36,447 nt of DNA from an uncultured Hungatella sp. (GTDB lineage Bacteria > Bacillota > Clostridia > Lachnospirales > Lachnospiraceae): the NCBI GenBank assembly GCA_949879025.1, contig CATLBO010000025.1, positions 1 through 36,447 of the forward strand, given 5' to 3'. The notes beneath the pieces are model-generated. The model searched no databases and was not told the origin of the DNA. It was given only the letters and a program-made list of their open reading frames with translations. The first letter of the stretch is position 1. Each line of letters begins with the position of its first letter. Shown one piece after another: positions 192 to 24,616 of this stretch. The position numbers and the translations under genes were made by a program.

Positions 192-626
192 ATGGTAGGA
201 ATTGTAATTACAGGACATGGCCATTTTCCAAGCGGGATATTAAGCGCAGTGGAGCTGGTGGCTGGCAAGCCTGATCAGGTCATTGGAGTGGATTTTGAGG
301 CTGGACACAGTGCCCATGCCTTGAAAGAGGCCATAATGGCTGCCGTGGAAGCGCTGGGTGGAGATGAGATCTTGATTCTGGCAGATTTGGTGGGAGGGAC
401 ACCTTTTAATATGGCGGCGGCAGTAAAGCAGGAGCTGACGAGCCGGAATATCCGCCTCCTTGCTGGTACAAATATGCCGGCAGCAATAGAAGCGGTATTT
501 TCGCGAGTCAATGCCGGGCTGGATGAGTTGACAGAGCTGGCAGCGGCTGCAGGATCAAGGGGCGTTGTGGATTTTGAACATTTGGGTCAGGACAAAGAAC
601 AGCTGCGGTTTGAGGACGGTATATGA
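192..626 (+). CDS. PTS mannose-family EIIA component
   Basis: This 144-residue cytoplasmic protein accepts phosphate from HPr and passes it to EIIB during sugar import. The N-terminus MVGIVITGHGHFPSG matches the EIIA-Man/AgaF/LevD fold, with His9 aligning to the phosphorylated His10 of ManX. The segment ILADLVGGTPFNMAA (about residues 61-75) is the second hallmark of the family. The length is normal for a stand-alone EIIA. It is the first gene of the operon and is followed by ugl, EIIB, EIIC and EIID, so the substrate is inferred to be an unsaturated uronic-acid disaccharide rather than mannose. Confidence 0.92.
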   Translation: MVGIVITGHGHFPSGILSAVELVAGKPDQVIGVDFEAGHSAHALKEAIMAAVEALGGDEILILADLVGGTPFNMAAAVKQELTSRNIRLLAGTNMPAAIEAVFSRVNAGLDELTELAAAAGSRGVVDFEHLGQDKEQLRFEDGI

Positions 627-668
627 TTAGGTAAAATAGCTATGAAACCATACAGAGATGGGAGATAA

Positions 669-1862
669 ATGATGAGAAAGACCATTAAGGAAGAACCGAT
701 TCATTACAGCAAAAAATATTTGGAGACCCCCCTCCTTACCAGGGAGGAGACAGAGACGGCGATTCATAAAGTGGTGGAGCAGGCCAGAGTGAACATAGAC
801 TATTTCGGAAACCAGTTTCCGTCTCCAGCTGCCAGGGGGCAGGTTTATGAGCGAATAGACAATGTTGAATGGACCAACGGATTCTGGACAGGACTGCTTT
901 GGCTCTGTTATGAGTACAGCGGGGACTGGATTTTTCGGCAGAAGGCAGAAGAACATGTGGATTCCTTTTTGCATCGAGTGGAAAACCGGATAGAACTGGA
1001 TCACCACGACTTAGGATTCCTCTATTCTCCTTCCTGCGTAGCCGGCTACAAACTGACAGGCTCCAAGCGGGCTAAGCAGGCAGGGATTCTGGCAGCGGAT
1101 AAGCTGATGGAACGGTTTCAGGAAAGGGACGGATTTTTCCAGGCCTGGGGAGAACTTGGGGCAAAGGACAATTACCGACTGATCATTGACTGCCTGATGA
1201 ATATTCCTTTGCTTTACTGGGCTGCCGGTGTGACGGGCCAGGAAAGATACCGGACGGCCGCCAAACGCCATTATGAAAAATCCTGCGATTATGTGATTCG
1301 GGAGGATGCATCGGCTTTCCATACCTTCTACTTTGATCCGGAAACAGGAGAGCCTGTAAAAGGCGTGACGCATCAGGGCTACAGCAATGACTCCGCATGG
1401 GCCAGAGGACAGGCATGGGGAATATACGGAATCCCGCTGAACTACCGGGAAGATCACAGCCCTGATTCAGTCAGGCTGTTTAAAGCAATGACCAATTATT
1501 TCTTAAACCGGCTTCCGGATGACGATGTGTGCTACTGGGATCTGATATTCGGTGACGGTTCCGGCCAGCCCAGAGACTCGTCAGCAGCGGCGGCAGCAGT
1601 CTGCGGCATATGTGAGATGGAAAAATACCTGCCGGAAACAGATGGAGATAAACCGGTTTACCGTCATGGGATGCATAGGATTCTCCGATCGCTTATAAAC
1701 AATTATGCAGGCAGCCAGATCAGGCCAGGCAGCCCGGTTCTCTGTCACGGCGTATATTCCTGGCATTCCGGTAAAGGGGTGGATGAGGGAAATATCTGGG
1801 GAGACTATTACTATATGGAAGCATTGATGCGTTTTTACAAAGACTGGAATCCATATTGGTAA
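669..1862 (+). CDS. ugl: unsaturated glucuronyl hydrolase (GH88)
   Basis: Predicted cytosolic glycoside hydrolase family 88 enzyme of 397 residues. GH88 hydrates the 4,5-double bond of unsaturated uronyl disaccharides made by polysaccharide lyases, releasing the unsaturated uronate and an amino sugar. The family segments are present: WTNGFWTGLLWLCYE (about 68-82), DHHDLGF (111-117) and LIIDCLMN (171-178). Asp114 and Asp174 have nearly the spacing of the two essential aspartates known from Bacillus UGL (88 and 149). There is no signal peptide, which fits import by the surrounding PTS. The start ATG is preceded by GGGAGA. Substrate preference (chondroitin, hyaluronan or heparin fragments) cannot be read from sequence. 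Confidence 0.92.
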   Translation: MMRKTIKEEPIHYSKKYLETPLLTREETETAIHKVVEQARVNIDYFGNQFPSPAARGQVYERIDNVEWTNGFWTGLLWLCYEYSGDWIFRQKAEEHVDSFLHRVENRIELDHHDLGFLYSPSCVAGYKLTGSKRAKQAGILAADKLMERFQERDGFFQAWGELGAKDNYRLIIDCLMNIPLLYWAAGVTGQERYRTAAKRHYEKSCDYVIREDASAFHTFYFDPETGEPVKGVTHQGYSNDSAWARGQAWGIYGIPLNYREDHSPDSVRLFKAMTNYFLNRLPDDDVCYWDLIFGDGSGQPRDSSAAAAAVCGICEMEKYLPETDGDKPVYRHGMHRILRSLINNYAGSQIRPGSPVLCHGVYSWHSGKGVDEGNIWGDYYYMEALMRFYKDWNPYW

Positions 1863-1896
1863 AAAAGCCTCATTATAAATGACGGCCTGAATAAAA

Positions 1897-1916
1897 CAGC
1901 CTGCAGCATCAGGCTG
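1897..1916 (+). other. intercistronic hairpin between ugl and EIIB
   Basis: CAGCCTG at 1897-1903 and CAGGCTG at 1910-1916 form a perfect 7-bp stem with a 6-base loop in the 105-base gap. No U-tract follows, so it is probably an mRNA processing or stability element rather than a terminator. Confidence 0.45.
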
Positions 1917-1967
1917 GAAGAGATTTTGATAGCGCAGTTACATTATTTAAAAACAGGAGGAGTAACG

Positions 1968-2459
1968 ATGGTACCTAATATTGTAGCTTTTCGCATTGAT
2001 GAACGCCTGATTCACGGACAGGGACAGTTGTGGATCAAGGCATTGGGGGTGAACACGGTGATTGTGGCCAACGATTCTGCCAGTGAAGACCCTATGCAGC
2101 AGACTCTGATGAAAGCGGTGGTGTCAAAGTCCGTTGCCATGCGGTTCTTTTCCGTGCAGCATACATGCGACGTGATTATGAAGGCTTCGCCGAAACAGTC
2201 CATTTTCATTGTGTGCAAAACGGCTGAGGATGCCCTGAAACTGGTGGCAGGAGGAGTTCCGGTAAAAGAGATTAATGTGGGGAACATTCACCGTGGGCCC
2301 GGCAAAGTGGAAATCAGCAAGTATATTGCCCTGGGCCCGGAGGATAAGGCGGCGTTAAAAGAACTTCGGGATAAGCACGGAATTACATTCAATACCAGAG
2401 CCACTGCTTCCGGCGATGACGGGGCGGCAAAGGTGGACTTAAACAAATATCTTGATTAA
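1968..2459 (+). CDS. PTS mannose-family EIIB component
   Basis: This 163-residue cytoplasmic phosphotransferase takes phosphate from EIIA and gives it to the incoming sugar. The N-terminus reads VAFRIDERLIHGQ; His16 in RLIHGQ is the family's phosphorylated histidine. The start at 1968 is chosen because AGGAGG sits about 7 bases upstream; an in-frame start at 1926 has no ribosome site and would add 14 non-family residues. The conserved segments EINVGNIHRGPGK and TFNTRATASGD follow. Immediate downstream neighbours are the EIIC and EIID membrane subunits. Confidence 0.92.
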   Translation: MVPNIVAFRIDERLIHGQGQLWIKALGVNTVIVANDSASEDPMQQTLMKAVVSKSVAMRFFSVQHTCDVIMKASPKQSIFIVCKTAEDALKLVAGGVPVKEINVGNIHRGPGKVEISKYIALGPEDKAALKELRDKHGITFNTRATASGDDGAAKVDLNKYLD

Positions 2460-2480
2460 TTGATAAAGGAGGAAACAGTT

Positions 2481-3269
2481 GTGACAATCAGTTTATTTCA
2501 ATGTGTGTTAATTGGCCTTTGGAGCGGATTTTGTCTGGCTGGGATGCTGTTTGGCATTTATACCAACCGATGCCTGGTTATGGCGGCCGGGGTGGGCCTC
2601 ATTTTGGGAGATCTTCCGACAGGACTGGCCATGGGAGCGGTGGGCGAGCTGGCTTTTATGGGATTTGGAGTATCCCAGGGAGGTTCAGTGCCGCCAAACC
2701 CTATGGGGCCTGGGATTGTGGGGACTATAATTGCGATTACCATGAAAGATTCAGGAATTGACGTGGGATCGGCCCTGGCCTTGTCCTTCCCCTTTGCCGT
2801 GGCGTTCCAGTTTGTGATTACGGCGACTTATACTTTTGCCACTACTCTTACAGAGACGGCGTATAAGGCGCTGGACAGAAAGGATTTTAAAGGCTTCCGC
2901 CTGGCGGCCAATGCTACCATATGGGTGTTTGCAGCAGTAGGATTTCTCATCGGGTTTGGAGGAGCGTTCAGCTCTGAGGGCCTGCAGAAGCTGATTTCCT
3001 TTATTCCCGGCTGGCTCAGCACAGGTCTCGGGGTGTCAGGGAAGATGCTTCCGGCTATTGGATTCGCCATGATTTTAAATGTAATGGCAAAGAGAGAGCT
3101 GATTCCTTTTGTGCTCCTTGGATACATTGCCATTGCTTACTTGAACCTTCCGGTTATGGGAGTTGCAGTACTTGGAACGGCTGTTGCGCTGATGGTGTTT
3201 TTCCATGCAGGCAGGGGCGGAGACAGTTTTGTTGAAGAAGTGGAGGTAGAATTTGAAGATGGTATCTAA
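2481..3269 (+). CDS. PTS mannose-family EIIC membrane component
   Basis: Integral membrane subunit of 262 residues that, with EIID, forms the sugar channel. It is hydrophobic throughout, with the family segment GDLPTGLAMGAVGELAFMG followed by VPPNPMGPGIVGTI. A GTG start at 2481 is chosen because AAAGGAGG lies at 2465-2472; a TTG at 2460 lies upstream of that ribosome site. The 3' end overlaps the EIID start, indicating translational coupling. Confidence 0.9.
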   Translation: MTISLFQCVLIGLWSGFCLAGMLFGIYTNRCLVMAAGVGLILGDLPTGLAMGAVGELAFMGFGVSQGGSVPPNPMGPGIVGTIIAITMKDSGIDVGSALALSFPFAVAFQFVITATYTFATTLTETAYKALDRKDFKGFRLAANATIWVFAAVGFLIGFGGAFSSEGLQKLISFIPGWLSTGLGVSGKMLPAIGFAMILNVMAKRELIPFVLLGYIAIAYLNLPVMGVAVLGTAVALMVFFHAGRGGDSFVEEVEVEFEDGI

Positions 3270-4068
3270 CAAATTACAAAAAAACGATTATATTAAAACA
3301 AGCCTCAGGGCGTATTTCCTGCAGAATGGATTTAATTACGGAAACTATCAGGGCCTTGGCTATGCCAACATGCTTTTCCCGGCTCTGCGCAAAATGTATA
3401 AGGATGATGACGATCAGCTTCAGGCGGCGCTGAAGGAGAACCTTGAATTTTTTAATACGAATCTCCATTTCGTTCCTTTCATTACCAGCCTCCATCTGGT
3501 TATGCTGGAAAATAATACTCCAGCCAAAGAGATCCGCAGCATTAAGATGGCCTTAATGGGGCCGCTGGCAGGTATCGGAGATTCCCTGGCCCAGTTCTGC
3601 CTGGCTCCCCTGTTTGCAACTATCGGCGCCTCTCTGGCCCAGGACGGCATGATTATGGGACCCGTTCTGTTTTTTGTGGCCATGAATGCGATTTTGCTGG
3701 CAGTAAAAGTGCTGACAGGCCTTTGGGGATATAAGCTGGGCACCAATATAATTGCCAGCTTAAGTGAAAAGATGGAGATAATTTCCAATATTGCCAGCAT
3801 GATTGGCGTTACCGTAATTTCCGGTTTGGCTGTAAACTTTGTAAAGATTACAACGCCCATACGGTATGTGGCAAACATGCCGGATAACCAGCAGAAAATT
3901 GTGGCCATTCAGGATATGGTAGATGCCATTGCGCCGAAACTTCTCCCTGTTTTATTTACTGGACTGATTTTCTACCTGATTAAGGTAAAGAAGTGGAGCA
4001 CATACAAACTGGTGATTTTAACCATTGTTCTTGGCATTGCATTATCAGTTCTCCAGTTGATTGCGTAG
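3259..4068 (+). CDS. PTS mannose-family EIID membrane component
   Basis: Membrane subunit of about 269 residues that partners EIIC. Family segments include LRAYFLQNGFNYGNYQGLGY near the N-terminus and MGPLAGIGDSLAQ in the middle, with hydrophobic helices in the C-terminal half. Two starts are possible: ATG at 3259, or TTG at 3253, which is closer (5 bases) to the GGAGGT at 3242-3247. Either start overlaps the end of EIIC (3269), so the two are probably translated together. EIID is unique to the mannose class, which fixes the transporter type. Confidence 0.9.
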   Translation: MVSNKLQKNDYIKTSLRAYFLQNGFNYGNYQGLGYANMLFPALRKMYKDDDDQLQAALKENLEFFNTNLHFVPFITSLHLVMLENNTPAKEIRSIKMALMGPLAGIGDSLAQFCLAPLFATIGASLAQDGMIMGPVLFFVAMNAILLAVKVLTGLWGYKLGTNIIASLSEKMEIISNIASMIGVTVISGLAVNFVKITTPIRYVANMPDNQQKIVAIQDMVDAIAPKLLPVLFTGLIFYLIKVKKWSTYKLVILTIVLGIALSVLQLIA

Positions 4069-4086
4069 TGAAGGAAAATAGATACA

Positions 4087-6180
4087 ATGGAACGTTTTGA
4101 GCAGTTAAAGAAAATACTGGAATACCGTTTTGACTGTTTCGGGTTCCGGGAGACTTCAGATTATATAGAAGCATATTGCCCCCAGGAAAAAAAGGAGCTT
4201 CTTGACCGGGCAGAGATTCTGCAGAAACAGACATTTTACTTTCGGGACAGGTGGGATATGGAACCCTGTCCCACTCCCTTTTTTGTGACACTGGATAACT
4301 GGACCACAAGCCCTAACGGTGACCCGGAGTGGGTCTATATGCTGAACCGCCACGATTTTCTGTGCAGGCTGTGGCAGGCTTATATCATGACAGGAAAGAA
4401 AGCCTATGTGGACAAATTGCTGTGGTATCTCTGGAACTGGATGGAAAAAAATCCCATTACCCTAACAGGCACAGAAGCTACCCGACCCATTGACACAGGA
4501 ATCCGCTGCATGAATTGGTGCGCTTTGTGTCTGGATTTAATTGGCGGAGGATTTCTGGGATCGGCAGAGACAGAAATCCTTCTGGAAAATATGGGCCGGC
4601 AACTGGAAAATCTGCAAAAACGGTATATAGGGAAGTATACATTAAGCAACTGGGGCGTGCTTCAGACAACTGCAGTCTGTGCCTGTTTTCTGTGGTTTCG
4701 GGACTTTTTTGCGGAAAGCGGGCTGGAGGAGTGGGCATGGGCAAAATTAAGGGAACAGCTGGAACTTCAGATTCTGGAAGACGGTTCCCATTGGGAGCAA
4801 TCGGCAATGTACCATGTGGAAGTGCTTAACGCCTGTACCAGGCTGCTGGCCTACATATGGCAGGCTGAGAAGACAGGGATTTGCCTGAATGAAAGTGCAA
4901 GATGTGCGGCAGGAAATTTGGGCCAAAAAGAAGACGGGGCCTGTGCCGGGTGGCTTGTGAAAATCGTCCTGAAAATGAGCCGCCATGTGCTTTACAGTTC
5001 TGCTCCCGATTTTATGCAGCTGCCTCAGGGGGACAGCGATATTACAGACATAAGGGATGTGATGGCCAGGGCGGCAGTGATCTCTGCGCTGTTTCCGGTT
5101 TTTAAGAAAGAGGAAGCAGGGGAGCAAGGCATATACCGATACGCAGCGGGAAAGCATCTGGATATGGACAGCGCATGGCTGTTTGGCATCTGGGGAATAA
5201 AGCGCTATGAAAGGCTGGAGCCAAAAGCCCCGCACATACTCAGCTGGTTCTGCCAGGACAGCGGAAATCTGTATCTTCGGAACTGCTGGGAGAGAAACGG
5301 AAATTTTACATGGATGGCAAACGGAAGCCTGGGCAGTAGCCATGGCCATGGAAATCAGACGCAGATATGCCTTTATTATCATGGACAGCCTTTTCTCATA
5401 GACAGCGGGCGGTACTCTTACAGGGAAGATGAACCTTTGCGGTGCAGGCTGAAAAGCCCTCAGGCTCATAATGTGTGTGTCATAGACGGGCAGTCCGGCG
5501 GGGAGCCGGATGGTTCCTGGACCTATGCCAGCTTTGGAGAAAACCTGAAGAATTATTTCCGGGAGCAGGAGGATGTCCACTATATGGAAATGCCTGTTCA
5601 TGGGACATTAAAGGATAAAACGCCTTATGTGATTGTGCGCCGGGTGATGGTAATTGATGCAGGGATCTGGCTCTCTGTGCAGGACGTTATCTGTGCAGGA
5701 AAACATCAGATTCGGGAGTACTTTCATCTGGATACCCAGGTTAGGGCGGAGAGGACAAAGGAGGGGATACGCCTGAAAAGCAAAGAGGCCTGCCTTCATG
5801 CAGTTTCGCCGGAACCATTTCAGATTGAGCGGACAGTGGTATCAGGACGATATAATGAAAAGTCGGAGACGCTTATGCTGGTAAAGGAGTGCATGATGGA
5901 GGACAGGCTGACGTTTTCCACGATTTTTTTGGCAGAGGGAATCAGGGCAGAGCCTGCCCAGGTGTTTGTATATGACGGGGAAAAGCCGGTATCCAGCCAG
6001 ACTGTAACAGGGTGGGACATCTGCACAAAACAGGGAGAGAAGCGGACGCTGCTGGTGTGGAACAGAGAAACCTTTCAGGGAGGAAAAATGTACCTCTGCC
6101 ATGGGGTGCCGGTTTACGGAAAGGCTATGGTGCTGAAGGAGGAAAAGGGCCGCTATACCAGAATCCGGCTGAAAAGTTAA
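4087..6180 (+). CDS. heparinase II/III-family lyase, cytosolic
   Basis: A 697-residue protein with the two-part layout of heparinase II/III enzymes: an N-terminal alpha/alpha barrel and a C-terminal beta-sandwich. Barrel motifs are SNWG (187-190) and DGSHWEQSAMYH (232-243), where Tyr242 and His243 are candidate catalytic residues. Sandwich motifs are SSHGHGNQ (417-424), FLIDSGRYSY (436-445) and AHN (460-462). No signal peptide or membrane helix is visible, so it should act in the cytosol on imported oligosaccharides, unlike secreted lyases. Position between EIID and a LacI-type regulator matches the hyaluronan-utilisation locus of streptococci as recalled, where such a protein is called oligohyaluronate lyase. 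Polysaccharide-lyase subfamily and substrate remain uncertain. Confidence 0.82.
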   Translation: MERFEQLKKILEYRFDCFGFRETSDYIEAYCPQEKKELLDRAEILQKQTFYFRDRWDMEPCPTPFFVTLDNWTTSPNGDPEWVYMLNRHDFLCRLWQAYIMTGKKAYVDKLLWYLWNWMEKNPITLTGTEATRPIDTGIRCMNWCALCLDLIGGGFLGSAETEILLENMGRQLENLQKRYIGKYTLSNWGVLQTTAVCACFLWFRDFFAESGLEEWAWAKLREQLELQILEDGSHWEQSAMYHVEVLNACTRLLAYIWQAEKTGICLNESARCAAGNLGQKEDGACAGWLVKIVLKMSRHVLYSSAPDFMQLPQGDSDITDIRDVMARAAVISALFPVFKKEEAGEQGIYRYAAGKHLDMDSAWLFGIWGIKRYERLEPKAPHILSWFCQDSGNLYLRNCWERNGNFTWMANGSLGSSHGHGNQTQICLYYHGQPFLIDSGRYSYREDEPLRCRLKSPQAHNVCVIDGQSGGEPDGSWTYASFGENLKNYFREQEDVHYMEMPVHGTLKDKTPYVIVRRVMVIDAGIWLSVQDVICAGKHQIREYFHLDTQVRAERTKEGIRLKSKEACLHAVSPEPFQIERTVVSGRYNEKSETLMLVKECMMEDRLTFSTIFLAEGIRAEPAQVFVYDGEKPVSSQTVTGWDICTKQGEKRTLLVWNRETFQGGKMYLCHGVPVYGKAMVLKEEKGRYTRIRLKS

Positions 6181-6280
6181 GAAACGGGTTCCTTGCCCAG
6201 GAAAACTATGCTATACTAAACTGTGTTTGAAAAGTGCTTCCTGGCCCAGAAAGGCTCTGGAACATCATGCGGAGGTTGCA

Positions 6281-7285
6281 ATGAAGAAGCTGACAATTAA
6301 TGAGATCGCAGAGAAGGCAGGGGTGTCCAAGACCACGGTTTCCTTTTATCTGAATGGAAAGACAAATAAGATGTCAGAAGAAACAAAGCAGCGGATACAG
6401 CAGATTATTGACGAAACAGGATATGAACCCAGCGCCGCTGCCCGTGCCATGAAGGCCAAAAGCAGCGCAATGCTGGGGGTGATTCTGGATGATGTGTCAA
6501 AGCCTTTTGAAGCCCAGGCATTAAAAGGGATAGAGGAGACAGCCAGGGCTTCCGGCTACCAGATCCTGATTGGCAACAGTGATCTGAATTTTAACACTGA
6601 AAAAGAATATATTGAACAGATGGTAAGATGCGGGGCGGAAGGCTTTATTATCCAGTCTACGTATCGTTTCGGCATGCTGGCGGCTTCCCTGGAAAAGAAG
6701 AGGAAACCCTTAGTCTATCTGGGAACCCGGCCTTATGATGTGAAAGGGCGCTATGTAAAAAGCAATCATTATGAATGTGTCTACCAGATGGTAACAGGAT
6801 GCATTGCAAAAGGATATGATGCCTTTGTAATGGTGGCCGGAGATGCATCTGACATAAGCGCCGGGTTTGAAAAGACCCGGGGATATAAGGATGCCCTGCA
6901 GGACGCAGGGCTTGAAGGCAGCAGCTGTTATTTTACGGAGCAAGTGCGCTCCGGCGATGTTTTTGAACAGCTGAAGCTGCTGGTGGATTTGACAAAAAAG
7001 ACCTTGATCTATGTGGCGGAGCCGGAACTTCTTCCGGTAGTATACCAGGCGATCCGCAATTATCCGGATTACCAGAAGCTGTTTCCGGATACTCTGGGAC
7101 TTATTGGCTTTGACATGACCGGCTGGACAAGGCTGACCACCCCGGCCATATCTGCCATCCTGGAACCTGCCTGCCAGGAAGGCGTCCGAGCCGCTAAAGA
7201 ACTTCTGGAGCTTTTGGAAGGTAAGCGGAAAGAGGGGGAAGTTGTGTTTAAAAATGTGGTAAAATGGAGGGAAACTACCCTTTAA
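6281..7285 (+). CDS. LacI-family transcriptional regulator (RegR-like)
   Basis: A 334-residue repressor. Residues 4-23 (LTINEIAEKAGVSKTTVSFY) form the LacI helix-turn-helix, followed by a hinge helix near AARAMKAKSS and a periplasmic-binding-protein-like effector domain starting at about residue 62. The start at 6281 is chosen for the GGAGG about 7 bases upstream; an in-frame TTG at 6227 lacks one. It ends the glycosaminoglycan operon and probably controls it through the AAACGCTT site near base 110. A -10-like TATACT at 6212-6217 suggests it may also have its own weak promoter. The effector is unknown; RegR-type function is inferred from gene order. Confidence 0.87.
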   Translation: MKKLTINEIAEKAGVSKTTVSFYLNGKTNKMSEETKQRIQQIIDETGYEPSAAARAMKAKSSAMLGVILDDVSKPFEAQALKGIEETARASGYQILIGNSDLNFNTEKEYIEQMVRCGAEGFIIQSTYRFGMLAASLEKKRKPLVYLGTRPYDVKGRYVKSNHYECVYQMVTGCIAKGYDAFVMVAGDASDISAGFEKTRGYKDALQDAGLEGSSCYFTEQVRSGDVFEQLKLLVDLTKKTLIYVAEPELLPVVYQAIRNYPDYQKLFPDTLGLIGFDMTGWTRLTTPAISAILEPACQEGVRAAKELLELLEGKRKEGEVVFKNVVKWRETTL

Positions 7286-10960: not shown

Positions 10961-12985
10961 TTATATGCGGAATTGGCTGATAAGCTGATTCAGTGTGCTT
11001 GCTTCATGAGACAGCTTGCTGGAAATTGCCGCACTCTCCTCAGCGGCGGCAGAGTTTGCTTCTATTACTCTGGAAACCTCCTTGATGCGGTTATCAATGG
11101 AGATTATCATTTCCGACTGCTGGGAGCTGGCAAGGGCAATTTCATCCATCAATGTTTTGATAGATTGAATGCACTGGCTGATTACCTGCATGGCGGAAAT
11201 AGCATGGCTTGTGGAGTCAGTGCCTGTCTGTACATCCTGAATAGAGCGGCCTATTAAAGTGCTTGTATTTTGGGCAGCTTCGGCAGACTTAGCTGCAAGG
11301 TTTTTGACCTCATCAGCCACAACGGCAAATCCCTTTCCGGCGCTTCCGGCCCTGGCGGCTTCCACGGAGGCATTGAGGGCAAGGATATTGGTCTGAAAGG
11401 CAATATCTTCAATGGTTTTGATAATGCTGACGATTTGAGCGGAGGAGCGGTCAATATTGTTTGTGGCGGTAACAAGAAGTTCCATCTTGGTATCTGCCTC
11501 TGAAGCATAACCAGTAGCTTTGTCCACCAGGTGGCTGGCGTCATTGTAGCGTGCAGCGCTGTTTTGGATCTGCGTGGAAATATCTGTAACATTGGAAACT
11601 AATCCGCTCATGGAATCTTTTTGCTCCATGGTTCCCTGAGACAAGGCCTGGGCGCCGGTGGATACCTGATCAGCACTGCTGCCTACCTGGTTGGCGATCT
11701 GCGAAATCTGACGCATTACATCCATAAGATGGGTGCGGATGCTTTTCAGGCTTTTGGCAAGAACCCTGAAATCACCGATGTAGTAAGATTCATTTTTCAC
11801 GACGTCCACGGCAATATTCCCGTTTGCCATTTCCCCCAGGATGCGGCCGATATCGTCAATGGTCATCCGCAGGCAGTCACATACATGATGGATGGTCTGT
11901 GCGATCATTCCAATTTCATCACTTCTGCCATAAAACGCTTCTAATTCCCGATCTGCCGACAGCTCCAGATTGCCAAGTCGGCGGATAGCGCTTTCCATAA
12001 CCATCAGTTCCCTGCCTTCCCGATGAAGAATTGTAAGGGTAACAAGTATAATAAATCCTGCTACAAGGGCGCACAGAATACCACTGGTGATGCGCACGGC
12101 AGTTACTTCTTTAAAGACCTCAGCCGCATTATCCCGAACCATGAACACCCAGTTGCGATCTTTCAGATATTTGTATGCTACCAGCTGTTTTACGCCATTT
12201 TCATCTCTGTAGGAATATGTACCTGCCTGTGTGGTTCCACCAGCTTTAAGCTGCTGGAGGATTTCCAGAAAGCCGCTGTCTGTTGTCTGAGTATTTAAAA
12301 GCGATTCGTCCTCGTGATACAGATACAGGCCTGTATCCGCATTGAGGAATACATATTCACTGTTGGGCAGCCCTTTAATATCCAAATCCAGCAGCACATC
12401 CATTAAGTGGCTGGCATAGACGGCAGCGCCTACAAAGCCAAGGCACTTCTGTCCATTAAAAAGCGGATAATACATGGAAAGGGTCATGCTTTTGCTTACC
12501 GGAGATTTGATGATTCCAAGATTCGTCAGCTGGGGATGTGCCAGGATTGTGCTCTGAAACTCTTCTAAAGAGTCACCAGTACGGGTGGTTATTCCCACAG
12601 CATTTGGTGAAGTATGGGTGAGAACGTAGGTGGAAGGCGTTCCAATATACAATCCCTCAAAAATACCCTTGACTGCAGCAAAATCTTCTGTGTATTGCTG
12701 CCCCCTTTGAAGAAGCGCAGGATCATCAGGGCTGGAAAGAAGCTTACGGACTTCGTCACTGAGGGCAAAGGCTGTCATGTATTCCTCAGCGGAAGACACA
12801 TAATCGTTGATAATGGCAGCTCTGGATTCTACAGCATCGATCATCTGGTTAGTTATATTGTTTTCGACCATAGAAGAGATATGGCTGGACACAATGAGCC
12901 AAAGCAATAAAAGCCCTGCAAATGTAATCCCCGTGGTAATGATGCCGATGCGGGTGGCAAGCTTTCGATTGGATAGAAATTTCAT
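10961..12985 (-). CDS. methyl-accepting chemotaxis protein with dCache-type sensor
   Basis: A 674-residue transmembrane chemoreceptor. Helix one spans about residues 12-34 and helix two about 298-321. Between them lies an extracellular double-Cache-like domain (about 40-290) with the segment SMTLSMYYPLFNGQKCLGFVG. A HAMP region follows (about 322-385), then the long cytoplasmic coiled coil with the invariant hairpin around IEDIAFQTNILALNASVEAA (about 525-544) and GKGFAVVADEVKNLA. There is no CheR-binding pentapeptide tail. The start at 12985 is supported by AGGAGG upstream; an in-frame start at 13033 would add 16 unlikely residues. The ligand is unknown. The flagellin gene in the same window fits a motile host. 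Confidence 0.93.
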   Translation of the reverse strand: MKFLSNRKLATRIGIITTGITFAGLLLLWLIVSSHISSMVENNITNQMIDAVESRAAIINDYVSSAEEYMTAFALSDEVRKLLSSPDDPALLQRGQQYTEDFAAVKGIFEGLYIGTPSTYVLTHTSPNAVGITTRTGDSLEEFQSTILAHPQLTNLGIIKSPVSKSMTLSMYYPLFNGQKCLGFVGAAVYASHLMDVLLDLDIKGLPNSEYVFLNADTGLYLYHEDESLLNTQTTDSGFLEILQQLKAGGTTQAGTYSYRDENGVKQLVAYKYLKDRNWVFMVRDNAAEVFKEVTAVRITSGILCALVAGFIILVTLTILHREGRELMVMESAIRRLGNLELSADRELEAFYGRSDEIGMIAQTIHHVCDCLRMTIDDIGRILGEMANGNIAVDVVKNESYYIGDFRVLAKSLKSIRTHLMDVMRQISQIANQVGSSADQVSTGAQALSQGTMEQKDSMSGLVSNVTDISTQIQNSAARYNDASHLVDKATGYASEADTKMELLVTATNNIDRSSAQIVSIIKTIEDIAFQTNILALNASVEAARAGSAGKGFAVVADEVKNLAAKSAEAAQNTSTLIGRSIQDVQTGTDSTSHAISAMQVISQCIQSIKTLMDEIALASSQQSEMIISIDNRIKEVSRVIEANSAAAEESAAISSKLSHEASTLNQLISQFRI

Positions 12986-13023
12986 AGAATTCCTCCTGAA
13001 TAAAAATGCTTTTAGACGGAGTG

Positions 13024-13052
13024 ATTTTATCACAATTTTCAGCTTTTTTCAA
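13024..13052 (-). promoter_or_regulatory. sigma-A-type promoter of the chemoreceptor gene
   Basis: Read on the minus strand, TTGAAA (13047-13052) and TAAAAT (13024-13029) are 17 bases apart. No sigma-28-like box was seen here, so this receptor may not belong to the flagellar sigma regulon. Confidence 0.6.
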
Positions 13053-20969: not shown

Positions 20970-21013
20970 AAAGAAACAGGCCATTAGGATTAATCCCAAT
21001 GGCCTGTTTCTTT
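20970..21013. terminator. strong terminator overlapping the end of the zinc-ribbon gene
   Basis: AAAGAAACAGGCCATT (20970-20985) and AATGGCCTGTTTCTTT (20998-21013) form a perfect 16-bp stem; the loop itself contains a small GGAT/ATCC palindrome. On the minus strand it ends the flagellin/zinc-ribbon unit. Unusually, the last seven codons and the stop of that gene (20990-21013) make up one arm and part of the loop. Confidence 0.8.
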
Positions 21014-21367
21014 GCAGATAAGTTTTTCTTTTTCACATATAGGGCAGACGTTTTGGCTCCCCTCTTCCAAGAGCTCCGGGACACTGCCGCATTCTGGACA
21101 TTTTGTGCTGTAGGTATGGCCGTTTTTCAAAAAACGGAGGACAGGCACAGCTACTATATTTTGGCACTGCCGGCAGGAGGCAGGGCGGTAATGAAACTGG
21201 AAAAGAGGCTCCTGCTCCTGCCGGACATCTTCTCTTATCTTTGCCTGGATATCAGCGGGAAATACCGGAAGGACACGGTTTAAAGCACAGTGGACTCTTC
21301 CATGGCCCGCAAAGATTTTCCAGGTTTTTCGGCAGGAAGGGCATCTGTATTCTTGAACAATTCCCAT
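20990..21367 (-). CDS. four-CxxC zinc-ribbon protein (CpXC-like)
   Basis: A 125-residue soluble protein with four Cys pairs: Cys9/12 (CPSC), Cys65/68 (CRQC), Cys90/93 (CPEC) and Cys108/111 (CPIC). They could bind two zinc ions. The N-terminal MGIVQEYRCPSC resembles CpXC-type proteins, for which no function is known. It starts 11 bases after the flagellin stop, with AAGGAGAT as ribosome site, and shares that gene's transcript up to the terminator at 20970-21013. A role in zinc delivery to, or handling of, the metalloprotease flagellin is possible but is inference from position only. Confidence 0.75.
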   Translation of the reverse strand: MGIVQEYRCPSCRKTWKIFAGHGRVHCALNRVLPVFPADIQAKIREDVRQEQEPLFQFHYRPASCRQCQNIVAVPVLRFLKNGHTYSTKCPECGSVPELLEEGSQNVCPICEKEKLICKETGHWD

Positions 21368-21378
21368 AACATATCTCC

Positions 21379-23217
21379 TTATCCGTTAAGAAGGCTGACA
21401 ACGACCTGGGGAACCTGATTGGCCTGGGCCAGCATGGACTGACCGCTTTGAAGCAGGATCTGGTTGCGCACATGCTCTGTAATTGCCTGCGCCATATCTG
21501 TATCCCGAATCTGGGATTCGGCGGCTGTCAGATTTTCAATGGTGTTGGCCAGGTTGGAAAGGGTATGTTCCAGACGGTTCTGAACTGCGCCGTAATGGCT
21601 GCGCATCTTGCTGACCTGATCAATAGCGGAGTCAACGCTGTCAATGGCGCTGTTGGCGTCTTCATGGGTAAGGACAGTGGTGCTGGAAAGCCGCAGCCCA
21701 GTGCTGTCAAGGCGGAACAAATCAATGTCAACGAAATTGTTGGCATCTCCTACCAGGAGAGAGATACGTCCGGCGGCTCCGACAGACCAGCTCTTTACAG
21801 AAAAGCTGCTGTTTGATGTTACGCCGCTGCCGAAAATGGAACCGCCGCCTGTGGACAGGTTGGGGGATATGATCGACCCGGCTCCGCCTTTGGAGGCAAT
21901 GGACAGATCACGCACAAATCCGACGAGAGAGGCATCCGGGTTATCAAACAGGCGTTCCAGGGAAGCCAGATCCTTTATCTTTCCTCCTGTATGGTTGCTT
22001 AATACGCTGTACAGAGACTTTGGCGCAGGATTTGCAGCAAGATCGGCAAATATTTTATCCATGCCGGCTGCTATGTTTGCACTGGTAACATCCGTTTGAC
22101 CGCTGGCAAGATAACCGATATACGCAGCTGCCAGATAACCATGCCCATAGGGACGGTCTTTTACATCGTAAGATGCTAAATAATCTGCAACAGCCTGATC
22201 CTGGCCAGTGGGATTGGCAGGATCGATCTGCCCTGCAATCTGTTCCAGTTTGTTGTTCCATCCTGTAGGGAATCCGCCTCCTGCCAGCTGGGCGGTGCCT
22301 TCTGTAAACCACTCAGGGAACTTTTCAACGCCGTCGCGCCCAAACATACCGTCAGTCAATGTATACTGCATGACGGAATGCATCAGTTCATGGGCAATGG
22401 TGGATTTTAAAGCATCCTGGGCCGGGCTGCCGTCTTTAATGGATTCATCGGAAAAGTCAGCGGTATCTACGGTTATGTTCATATTAAAAGGCCTGCCGTC
22501 GGCACGGAACGAGGCCTGAGCATAGGCCAGTGTGCCGTATCCTCCGTCAATATACTCAATACGGAGATCCATCTCAATTTTTTCGCCGCCAATATTGGCT
22601 TTCAGGGAGGGAAAAGCATCCAGAATCTGAGTAAAAGCATTGGGAAGATATTCAGTGGCTATTTTCTCTGCCAAGGCATCGTAACCGGTGCTCTCAGAAG
22701 CCTTGCCGATGCGGCCTGCATAATTTACGTTTACAGTCTGGTTTTTTAAATCCAGGGTACAGCCATAGAGAGAGGTTAAGGTAACACCTTTCTTGGAGGC
22801 CCCGTTGCTGAACAAGGGAACGCCGCTGAAGTTGGTGGATGTGCCGATGCGGCCGATTTCCTCTTTTAAAGCATCCATCTCCTGATTCATCATGGCACGC
22901 TGGTCGTCTGTATAAGTGCTGTTTGAAGCCTGTACCGCCATTCCCTTCATGCGATTAAGCATAGAATGAACCTCTGTCAGGGCGCCCTCCACGGTCTGAA
23001 CAAGGGAAACGCCGTCCAGGGTATTTCTCTTGGCCTGATTGAGGGACATGATCTGCGCCCGCATCTTTTCAGATACAGCAAGACCTGCCGCATCATCTCC
23101 GGCACGGTTAATACGATAACCTGAACTGAGTTTCTCCAGATTTTTGGACATGGTACCCTGGGTCGTGGAGATAATTCTCTGAGAATTAATGGCGGATAGA
23201 TTGTGCTGAATTCTCAT
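21379..23217 (-). CDS. flagellin with inserted metalloprotease domain (flagellinolysin)
   Basis: A 612-residue flagellin, about twice the length of minimal flagellins. Residues 1 to about 140 are a normal D0/D1 segment (MRIQHNLSAINSQR, then LEKLSSGYRINRAGDDAAGL). The C-terminal end from about 520 is the matching D1/D0 (AESQIRDTDMAQ, then LLQSGQSMLAQANQVPQ). Between them, where surface-exposed D2/D3 domains normally sit, lies a peptidase-like domain. HELMH (276-280) gives zinc ligands His276 and His280 and catalytic Glu277. EWFTEGTAQ (302-310) supplies a candidate third ligand, Glu306. YGHGYLAAAYIGYL (357-370) follows, as in related gluzincins. Flagellins of this design are known to form proteolytically active filaments. 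The ATG is preceded by GGAGGTGA. Confidence 0.93.
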   Translation of the reverse strand: MRIQHNLSAINSQRIISTTQGTMSKNLEKLSSGYRINRAGDDAAGLAVSEKMRAQIMSLNQAKRNTLDGVSLVQTVEGALTEVHSMLNRMKGMAVQASNSTYTDDQRAMMNQEMDALKEEIGRIGTSTNFSGVPLFSNGASKKGVTLTSLYGCTLDLKNQTVNVNYAGRIGKASESTGYDALAEKIATEYLPNAFTQILDAFPSLKANIGGEKIEMDLRIEYIDGGYGTLAYAQASFRADGRPFNMNITVDTADFSDESIKDGSPAQDALKSTIAHELMHSVMQYTLTDGMFGRDGVEKFPEWFTEGTAQLAGGGFPTGWNNKLEQIAGQIDPANPTGQDQAVADYLASYDVKDRPYGHGYLAAAYIGYLASGQTDVTSANIAAGMDKIFADLAANPAPKSLYSVLSNHTGGKIKDLASLERLFDNPDASLVGFVRDLSIASKGGAGSIISPNLSTGGGSIFGSGVTSNSSFSVKSWSVGAAGRISLLVGDANNFVDIDLFRLDSTGLRLSSTTVLTHEDANSAIDSVDSAIDQVSKMRSHYGAVQNRLEHTLSNLANTIENLTAAESQIRDTDMAQAITEHVRNQILLQSGQSMLAQANQVPQVVVSLLNG

Positions 23218-23392: not shown

Positions 23393-23419
23393 ATATCGGC
23401 TTAAAACCGGATTTCTTAA
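23393..23419 (-). promoter_or_regulatory. sigma-28 (flagellar) promoter of the flagellin operon
   Basis: On the minus strand GCCGATAT (23400-23393) is an exact match to the sigma-28/sigma-D -10 element. TTAA (23419-23416) sits 15 bases upstream at the place of the TAAA -35 element. Transcription should start near 23386. Confidence 0.7.
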
Positions 23420-23695: not shown

Positions 23696-24616
23696 GTGAG
23701 ACTAGTAACACGTTCAGACTTTGACGGGCTGGTATGCGGAGCATTATTATTGGAGGCGGGGGTTATTGACCATTGGAAGTTTGCGCATCCAAAAGATTTA
23801 CAGGACGGTTTGGTGGAGATAGATGAGAATGACTGCCTGGCTAATGTACCATTTGTGGAGGGCTGCGGGCTTTGGTTTGACCATCATTCCAGTGAACATG
23901 AGCGTTTACAGCTTGAGGGGAAATATAAAGGAGAAAGCCGCATTACGCCGTCATGTGCCAGGATTATATATGAGTATTACGGCGGCAAGGAGCGTTTTCC
24001 GCAGTTTGATGAGATTATGGAGGCTGTGGATAAAGTTGATTCCGGTAATTTGACCGTTGATGAAGTTATGAACCCAAAGGGATGGATACTCATCGGATTT
24101 TTGATGGACCCAAGAACCGGATTGGGAAGATGGAGGGATTTTACCATTTCTAACTATCAGCTGATGGAGAAACTGCTGGATGGCTGCCGGGTTATGAGTA
24201 CAGCGGAGATCCTTGCCCTTTCCGATGTGCAGGAGCGGGTGGAAGTTTACAATGAACAGATGGAAAAGTTCAAAGAGATGGTAACGGCTCATACACGGGT
24301 TGAGGGAAATGTAATTATTACAGACCTGAGAGGGGTGGAACCTATTTATACAGGCAACCGCTTTATGATTTACAGTATGTATCCGCAGCAGAATATTTCG
24401 GCATGGATCGTCAGCGGCAAAGGCGGGCAGGGATGTTCGGCAGCAGTAGGATACAGCATTCTGAACCGCACGGCTGCACTGAACGTAGGAAGCCTGATGT
24501 TAAAGTATAATGGCGGCGGCCACAAGAAGGTGGGAACCTGTCAGTTTAATAATGAAAATATGGATACGGAGCTGCCAAAGATGCTGGAGGAACTTTGCGC
24601 CATGGCTAATGCGTAG
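23696..24616 (+). CDS. DHH/DHHA1-family phosphoesterase
   Basis: A 306-residue cytosolic protein of the DHH superfamily. The metal-binding motifs are TRSDFDG (5-11) and FDHHSSEH, and the C-terminal DHHA1 element is YNGGGHKKVGTCQF. This group includes nanoRNases and cyclic-dinucleotide or pAp phosphatases and proteins annotated as exopolyphosphatase-related; which activity applies is not decided by sequence. The GTG start is fixed by AAAGGAGGG about 9 bases upstream. The gene stands alone behind a long structured leader and ends in a strong terminator. Confidence 0.85.
   Translation: MRLVTRSDFDGLVCGALLLEAGVIDHWKFAHPKDLQDGLVEIDENDCLANVPFVEGCGLWFDHHSSEHERLQLEGKYKGESRITPSCARIIYEYYGGKERFPQFDEIMEAVDKVDSGNLTVDEVMNPKGWILIGFLMDPRTGLGRWRDFTISNYQLMEKLLDGCRVMSTAEILALSDVQERVEVYNEQMEKFKEMVTAHTRVEGNVIITDLRGVEPIYTGNRFMIYSMYPQQNISAWIVSGKGGQGCSAAVGYSILNRTAALNVGSLMLKYNGGGHKKVGTCQFNNENMDTELPKMLEELCAMANA

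Follow-up and report, generated by a model that had tools for sequence, protein, structure and literature searches.

Flagellinolysins were described in 2017 (PMC5595980) and 2020 (PMC7643111), and the passages of these papers on which we draw report activity for two family members, both Zn/Ca-dependent proteases. FliA(H) of Clostridium haemolyticum is found at full length in filaments, of which it can make up as much as 10%, and its activity is mostly filament-bound (PMC5595980). HgrFlaMP of Hylemonella gracilis cleaves itself, aggregates and cuts flagellin, and release of its protease domain has been suggested (PMC7643111). Here we compare these systems with a gene in a 36,447-nucleotide stretch of DNA from an uncultured Hungatella sp., hereafter the window. 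The original prediction for this DNA had proposed a flagellin whose variable surface domain is replaced by a zinc-protease-like domain and had recognised flagellinolysins as an already known kind of protein. Both points hold, since the previously described curated family NF033876 (MEROPS M101), whose members are flagellins bearing a gluzincin-type metalloprotease at this position, matches the window protein above its cut-off. What is new at this locus is thus not the proteolytic flagellin but a small adjacent gene, here called zr, and its linkage to flagellinolysins. The features are as follows, residue numbers in the larger gene referring to the flagellinolysin.

20990..21367, minus strand: zr, encoding a 125-residue zinc-ribbon protein that has four CxxC pairs; the gene starts 11 bases past the flagellinolysin stop codon.
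21379..23217, minus strand: flagellinolysin gene (FlaMP), 612 residues, from its open reading frame, translation and NF033876 match.
21388..21645, minus strand: D1/D0 C-terminal flagellin region, residues 525-610 (Flagellin_C, PF00700, E 8.2e-27).
21793..21888, minus strand: Ser/Gly-rich stretch, residues 444-475, opening with a GAGS segment; 17 of 32 residues are Ser or Gly.
21871..22689, minus strand: peptidase (M101) domain, residues 177-449, the span used for the peptidase alignment, with NF033876 and collagenase matches.
22297..22314, minus strand: EWFTEG, residues 302-307, with invariant Glu306 as third zinc ligand by homology (ColG alignment).
22378..22392, minus strand: HELMH, residues 276-280, predicted zinc ligands and catalytic Glu277.
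22804..23211, minus strand: D0/D1 N-terminal flagellin region, residues 3-138 (Flagellin_N, PF00669, E 6.2e-37).
23393..23419, minus strand: putative sigma-28-type promoter motif TTAA-N15-GCCGATAT, 175 bases upstream of the flagellinolysin start codon.

The open reading frame proposed for 21379..23217 is confirmed and lies on the minus strand; in the ORF translation it starts with ATG, and the plus-strand translation of the same interval contains several stops. Likewise, the D0/D1 ends predicted to be intact correspond to two matches that both exceed the gathering score, the 386 residues between them agree with an expected insert of about 380, and HELMH and EWFTEG sit where they had been placed, so that the numbering of Glu306 is correct.

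By its profile match the window protein is a further member of the known flagellinolysin family. NF033876 scores 214.7 bits against a cut-off of 205 (E 2.8e-63, residues 111-541), a margin of only about 10 bits; the alignment spans positions 2-383 of the 384-position model, and a genome-level repeat of the search gave 216.2 bits. In 612 residues of the same composition, HExxH would be expected 0.007 times by chance. The protein has the layout of HExxH, downstream third-ligand glutamate and basement alanine, and in an alignment of 18 intact flagellinolysins from the window genome and its relatives, His276, Glu277, His280, Trp303, Glu306 and Gly307 are invariant, while Ala309, the basement residue three positions after Glu306, is kept in 17. 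Candidates for the published calcium-site residue Asp206 are Asp251, whose column holds Asp in 13 and Asn in five of the 18 sequences, and Asp254, with Asp in 13. Glu302 was ruled out as third zinc ligand, because only four of the 18 sequences have glutamate there.

Searched against solved structures, a profile of the peptidase domain matched the collagenases ColG (E 3e-5), ColT (1e-4) and ColH (about 3e-4), and also the neutral metalloprotease 7bb8 (6e-5). Two printed ColG alignments place HExxH and WFxEG in register with the window profile, and the pairing of Glu306 with the WFxEG glutamate of ColG supports its assignment as third zinc ligand by homology. In the zincin arrangement, HExxH lies in one helix and the third-ligand glutamate in the next. 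Both AlphaFold models that we obtained from three-row alignments place HExxH inside a single helix and Glu306 in the following one (residues 267-289 and 301-312, respectively, in the full model); these are weak models, however, whose mean pLDDT (50.0 and 54.9) is too low for measuring ligand distances at His276, His280 and Glu306, and no zincin was among the listed matches of Foldseek and VIA structure searches with them.

How might such a protein be expressed? The motif upstream of the gene, which we read as agreeing throughout with the sigma-28 (sigma-D) consensus, has 12 of 12 consensus letters, and none of 400 shuffled 300-mers reaches 11. The pattern occurs once in the window, compared with a mean of 0.04 in shuffles, four of 100 of which have one. 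Intact orthologues carry the motif upstream at 11 of 12 (L007) or 12 of 12 letters (L071 and L015/L154), and two ordinary flagellins of the window genome do so at 11 of 12. Broken copies score 12 (G1027, split), 10 (G1025 and G031) and 9 (1XD42-76), and at loci with zr as the first gene the motif upstream of it scores 11 (G097), 10 (G054), 9 (G064, G514 and G376) or 8 (G193); here 24 of 400 shuffles attain a score of 10, and for G031, G1027 and G054 the end of the scan and the start codon did not coincide exactly. Two genome-wide sigma-28 markers were rejected: GCCGATAT alone is common (165 places versus 100 for the reversed control), and the strict long pattern finds one place, the flagellinolysin gene, versus two for its reversed control, so that this count by itself shows nothing. 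The predicted promoter, which recurs before intact orthologues, links the gene with the regulon of late flagellar genes.

Compared with its 96% identical counterpart in L007, a MAG of an uncultured Hungatella sp., the gene has a dN/dS of 0.077 overall and 0.064 in the peptidase region, which is under strong purifying selection; the value for zr is 0.22. Besides the flagellinolysin, the window genome (83% complete) encodes three flagellins that lack a peptidase; contig 36 has two of these genes and contig 157 the third, which is incomplete. Flagellinolysin is therefore probably a minor subunit of a mixed filament. The earlier picture of a flagellin with a protease domain stands, but its thousands of active sites per filament have to be toned down in view of the three protease-free flagellins.

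Identified neighbours in the window are non-flagellar (glycoside and PTS genes, aconitase, citrate synthase, isocitrate dehydrogenase, a metal-transporting ATPase and others) except for a chemoreceptor, a methyl-accepting chemotaxis protein at 10961-13033 (minus strand) that weakly matches dCache and lies some 8 kb from the flagellinolysin; several ORFs around the gene have no family match. At 192-7285 (plus strand), a mannose/sorbose-type PTS, a GH88 hydrolase, a heparinase II/III-like protein and a LacI regulator presumably form a glycosaminoglycan-use operon. A divergent ORF of 306 residues at 23696-24616 (plus strand) matches nothing in Pfam or NCBIfam at E 0.001 and contains a stretch, FDHHSSEHE, which we take to be DHH-like.

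On the other side of the gene lies zr, its start preceded by a ribosome-binding-like AAGGAG. Against curated families the protein (P0002) has no match over cut-off, the best Pfam score being 17.6 bits versus a threshold of 34.4 and the best NCBIfam score 18.9 versus 117, and against solved structures its profile shows generic zinc-ribbon similarity only (E 0.004 or worse). Fourteen aligned relatives share invariant C9, G21, C65, C68, C93, C108, P109 and C111 and a G-x-W-D end. Far members are 18-31% identical to P0002, and each relative is recognised at 72-103 bits by profiles made from rows less than 40% identical to it. No signal peptide is evident by eye, so that zr is probably cytosolic.

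Our main reading, which we hold at a probability of about 0.87, is that this flagellinolysin sits in the filament by its D0/D1 ends as a minority subunit, exposes a collagenase-related zinc peptidase (M101) and thereby makes the filament proteolytic, with zr as its putative cytosolic partner. Expression, export, assembly and activity are what we infer from the sequence, and we envision the following course. The gene would be transcribed together with late flagellar genes from the sigma-28-type promoter, and its product would be handled in the cytosol by zr, which might, for example, keep the peptidase zinc-free or inactive. The protein would then be exported by the flagellar type III system, its D0/D1 ends would enter the filament among a majority of ordinary flagellins, and the peptidase would come to lie on the surface, rendering it proteolytic. 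In this reading, zr may be a dedicated partner of flagellinolysin, and zinc handling, inhibition and chaperoning are candidate roles for it before export.

Is zr linked to the flagellinolysin itself? Within the genus, a single-sequence query finds zr in five of 26 genomes, exactly the five with a flagellinolysin; flagellin matches occur in nine genomes, four of which have neither zr nor flagellinolysin. In the family sample, where the best 14 or fewer first-look candidates per genome were scored, 14 of 299 genomes have a zr match at E 1e-5. Eight of these matches exceed 115 bits and adjoin a flagellinolysin, all eight being rows of the zr profile; two lie at contig ends with the neighbour out of view (G241, 90 bits; G039, 38 bits). 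Flagellin-embedded M101 is present in ten genomes of this sample, two of them (G276 and G278) without zr, and two further central M101 matches (G080 and G293) fall in non-flagellin proteins. In the order sample, zr appears at E 1e-10 in five of 392 genomes, always adjoining a flagellinolysin, and M101 at E 1e-20 in 16, of which 11 are without zr.

Across all searches, 33 genomes carry a flagellin-embedded M101 peptidase. In 15 of them zr is adjacent, one case being a remnant; one (G931) has a shorter CxxC protein of 104 residues, and 17 have no zr, which implies that it is not required by all flagellinolysins. Ten of the 17 were judged on flanks of up to about 8 kb (shorter at contig ends) and the other seven on whole-genome searches plus short flanks; in seven of the 17, partial matches of 21-31 bits turn up at other places in the genome, and we did not count these as zr. 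As in the window, zr is the next gene downstream in L007, L071, L015, L008/L016, L018 and L073/L078, with a 3' remnant in L072, and it is the next gene upstream in L017, L019, L021, L023, L048, L049 and L050, at gaps of 28 to 133 bases where measured. No zr was seen beside the six M101 proteins that lack flagellin ends (L022, L053, L056, L057, L195 and L196, the first four with short flanks). That zr accompanies flagellin-embedded M101 and was not seen with these other proteins would suit a role ahead of flagellar export.

Because the zr profile was built from proteins beside flagellinolysins, and the eight strong family hits are its own rows, part of this evidence is circular. The single-sequence query in the genus, the profiles from rows below 40% identity and the M101-negative genomes of the order are free of that circularity; Fisher values for the linkage (1.4e-12 and 5.8e-8) ignore both relatedness and the circularity of the profile.

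Alternatively, zr may be functionally unrelated to flagellinolysin and be either a zinc-ribbon regulator of a general kind or a neighbour peculiar to certain lineages. The 17 genomes without zr are what this explanation would lead one to expect, as are the weaker homologues of 29-59 bits in four genomes of the family sample (G047, G005, G293 and G150), which have no M101 within the surrounding 12-13 kb. We nevertheless consider it unlikely, since placement on either side of the gene over such wide divergence argues against mere vertical synteny, and since zr was found at E 1e-10 in none of the 376 genomes of the order sample without an M101 match, where scoring covered roughly the 11 top first-look candidates of each genome. 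From the linkage we tentatively raise a more specific proposal, possible but falling well short of even odds: the order's flagellinolysin and zr would form a two-gene module in which zr controls the enzyme before export, through delivery or withholding of zinc or through a block of the peptidase, and so spares unassembled flagellins.

The zinc-ribbon family to which zr belongs is broader than its link to flagellinolysin. Other zr-like proteins were seen at L146:105-509, L147:6528-6944, L148:6322-6834 and L150:6000-6440, one at a contig end (G241) and three without a nearby M101. In G931, which belongs to another family, each of two flagellinolysins is followed by a 104-residue CxxC protein ending in FYD (L058:3147-3458 and L065:849-1160), 113-133 bases downstream and with marginal similarity to zr (19.5 and 18.4 bits); the one in L058 resembles HypA in a family scan.

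A second alternative concerns the fate of the peptidase, which might be freed from the filament, or exported through the flagellar system as a monomer, to act as a soluble protease, with the Ser/Gly-rich stretch as cleavage site. Residues 444-475 had indeed been put forward as a possible linker or self-cleavage site. Their composition is as described and would suit this idea, as would the self-cleavage, aggregation and suggested domain release of the H. gracilis protein in the published passages (PMC7643111). However, we found no support for a self-cleavage site: the GAGS opening is common to 13 of the 18 aligned flagellinolysins, so that at least this part of the stretch is ordinary domain anatomy. 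Together with the full-length filament protein and mostly filament-bound activity described for C. haemolyticum (PMC5595980), this makes a soluble protease improbable, and we keep to an enzyme that would stay on the filament.

Several flagellin backbones carry the M101 domain, as do some proteins that are not flagellins. We built a D0/D1 tree from 71 flagellin rows, of which 33 have a peptidase; on it the peptidase label must change 14 times or more, and well supported branches force four or more of these changes. The window D0/D1 region groups with structural flagellins of its own genus, at 94 (unstarred) in this tree and at 96 (starred) in a 66-row tree that omits five long-branched rows, a few rows of both trees being the same gene fetched twice. 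In a peptidase tree of 45 rows, where fragments of broken copies are rows of their own, the window clade is placed with the copies L041-L046 instead (100, starred), and the non-flagellin proteins L022 and L053 (98 each, starred) fall beside or among flagellin-borne domains. Forcing together the D0/D1 regions of the window clade and of its peptidase sister group (five copies) is 34 log units worse but not significantly so (p-AU 0.068); domain swapping in the window's branch is suggested but short of proof. The pattern fits movement of the peptidase between flagellin backbones, as the 2017 paper proposed (PMC5595980, in the passages drawn on). Among viral contigs, not one of the 48 loci returned by a full-length alignment search matches M101 at E 1e-3, and a peptidase alignment search returned eight weak relatives.

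Several further architectures occur. M101 without flagellin ends occurs at L022:232-2406 (with a type I dockerin), L053:127-2538 (with an InlB-like repeat), L056:736-2868, L057:1093-3240, L195:3010-5355 and L196:2928-5366. Very large M101 flagellins with a long extra region are encoded at L153:6097-9378, L021:46-2928 and L023:871-3810 (961, at least 980 and 1094 residues). Flagellins of family f62 (L063-L064 and L066-L068) match only part of the flagellinolysin model (about 38-218), and three of the five f62 genomes also have a full-length match.

Within the window's peptidase clade, flagellinolysin is broken in four of eight genomes, and the open copies are those of the window, L007, L071 and L015. 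In G283 (L008) the reading frame is disrupted close to each end, and another residue stands in place of the catalytic glutamate; G1025 has a stop and has lost its 3' part, with zr cut too; G1027 has a frame change near the middle, and G031 a stop near residue 100. Outside the clade, the copy of G900 is split by a stop. The loci of these four genomes and G900 are L008 (=L016), L018, L072, L073/L078 and L063/L197; all come from draft genomes, so that assembly errors are possible. Four broken copies among eight close relatives indicate that the trait is dispensable. That the protein is made and assembled while its peptidase is inactive in this lineage, serving only as an antigenic or adhesive surface domain, would accord with such tolerated loss, including that of a catalytic glutamate, but it is highly improbable given the intact catalytic residues of the window protein and its 96% identical relative, the low dN/dS of the peptidase region and a motif invariant in all 18 intact copies. 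The case shows one peptidase on several backbones and recurrent decay of its gene in close relatives.

How a promiscuous protease is safely made in the cytosol and then exported is left unexplained in the passages of the two primary papers (PMC5595980, PMC7643111), one of which describes the H. gracilis enzyme as cutting flagellin and tending to digest itself (PMC7643111). For this missing step zr is a testable candidate. If the proposed module is real, zr would be a safety or maturation factor specific to a protease exported via the flagellar type III system. Literature joining a proteolytic flagellin with a zinc ribbon was not found in a search covering mainly the texts of openly available papers.

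Compared with known systems, the window protein resembles FliA(H) and HgrFlaMP in its flagellin D0/D1 ends, its central HExxH...E peptidase and its third-ligand glutamate, and, as in C. haemolyticum, its genome has ordinary flagellin alongside it. It shares its D0/D1 ends with the ordinary flagellins of its own genus and differs from them by the peptidase insertion. Its profile also matches the M9 collagenases ColG, ColH and ColT around HExxH and the WFxEG third ligand, but the relationship is distant (profile E 3e-5 to 3e-4) and, unlike theirs, its peptidase is embedded in a flagellin. Unlike the characterised flagellinolysins, it is known from sequence alone and belongs to a host lineage near Lachnospiraceae. 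It also directly adjoins zr, a neighbour that goes unmentioned in the passages drawn on for FliA(H) and HgrFlaMP (PMC5595980, PMC7643111).
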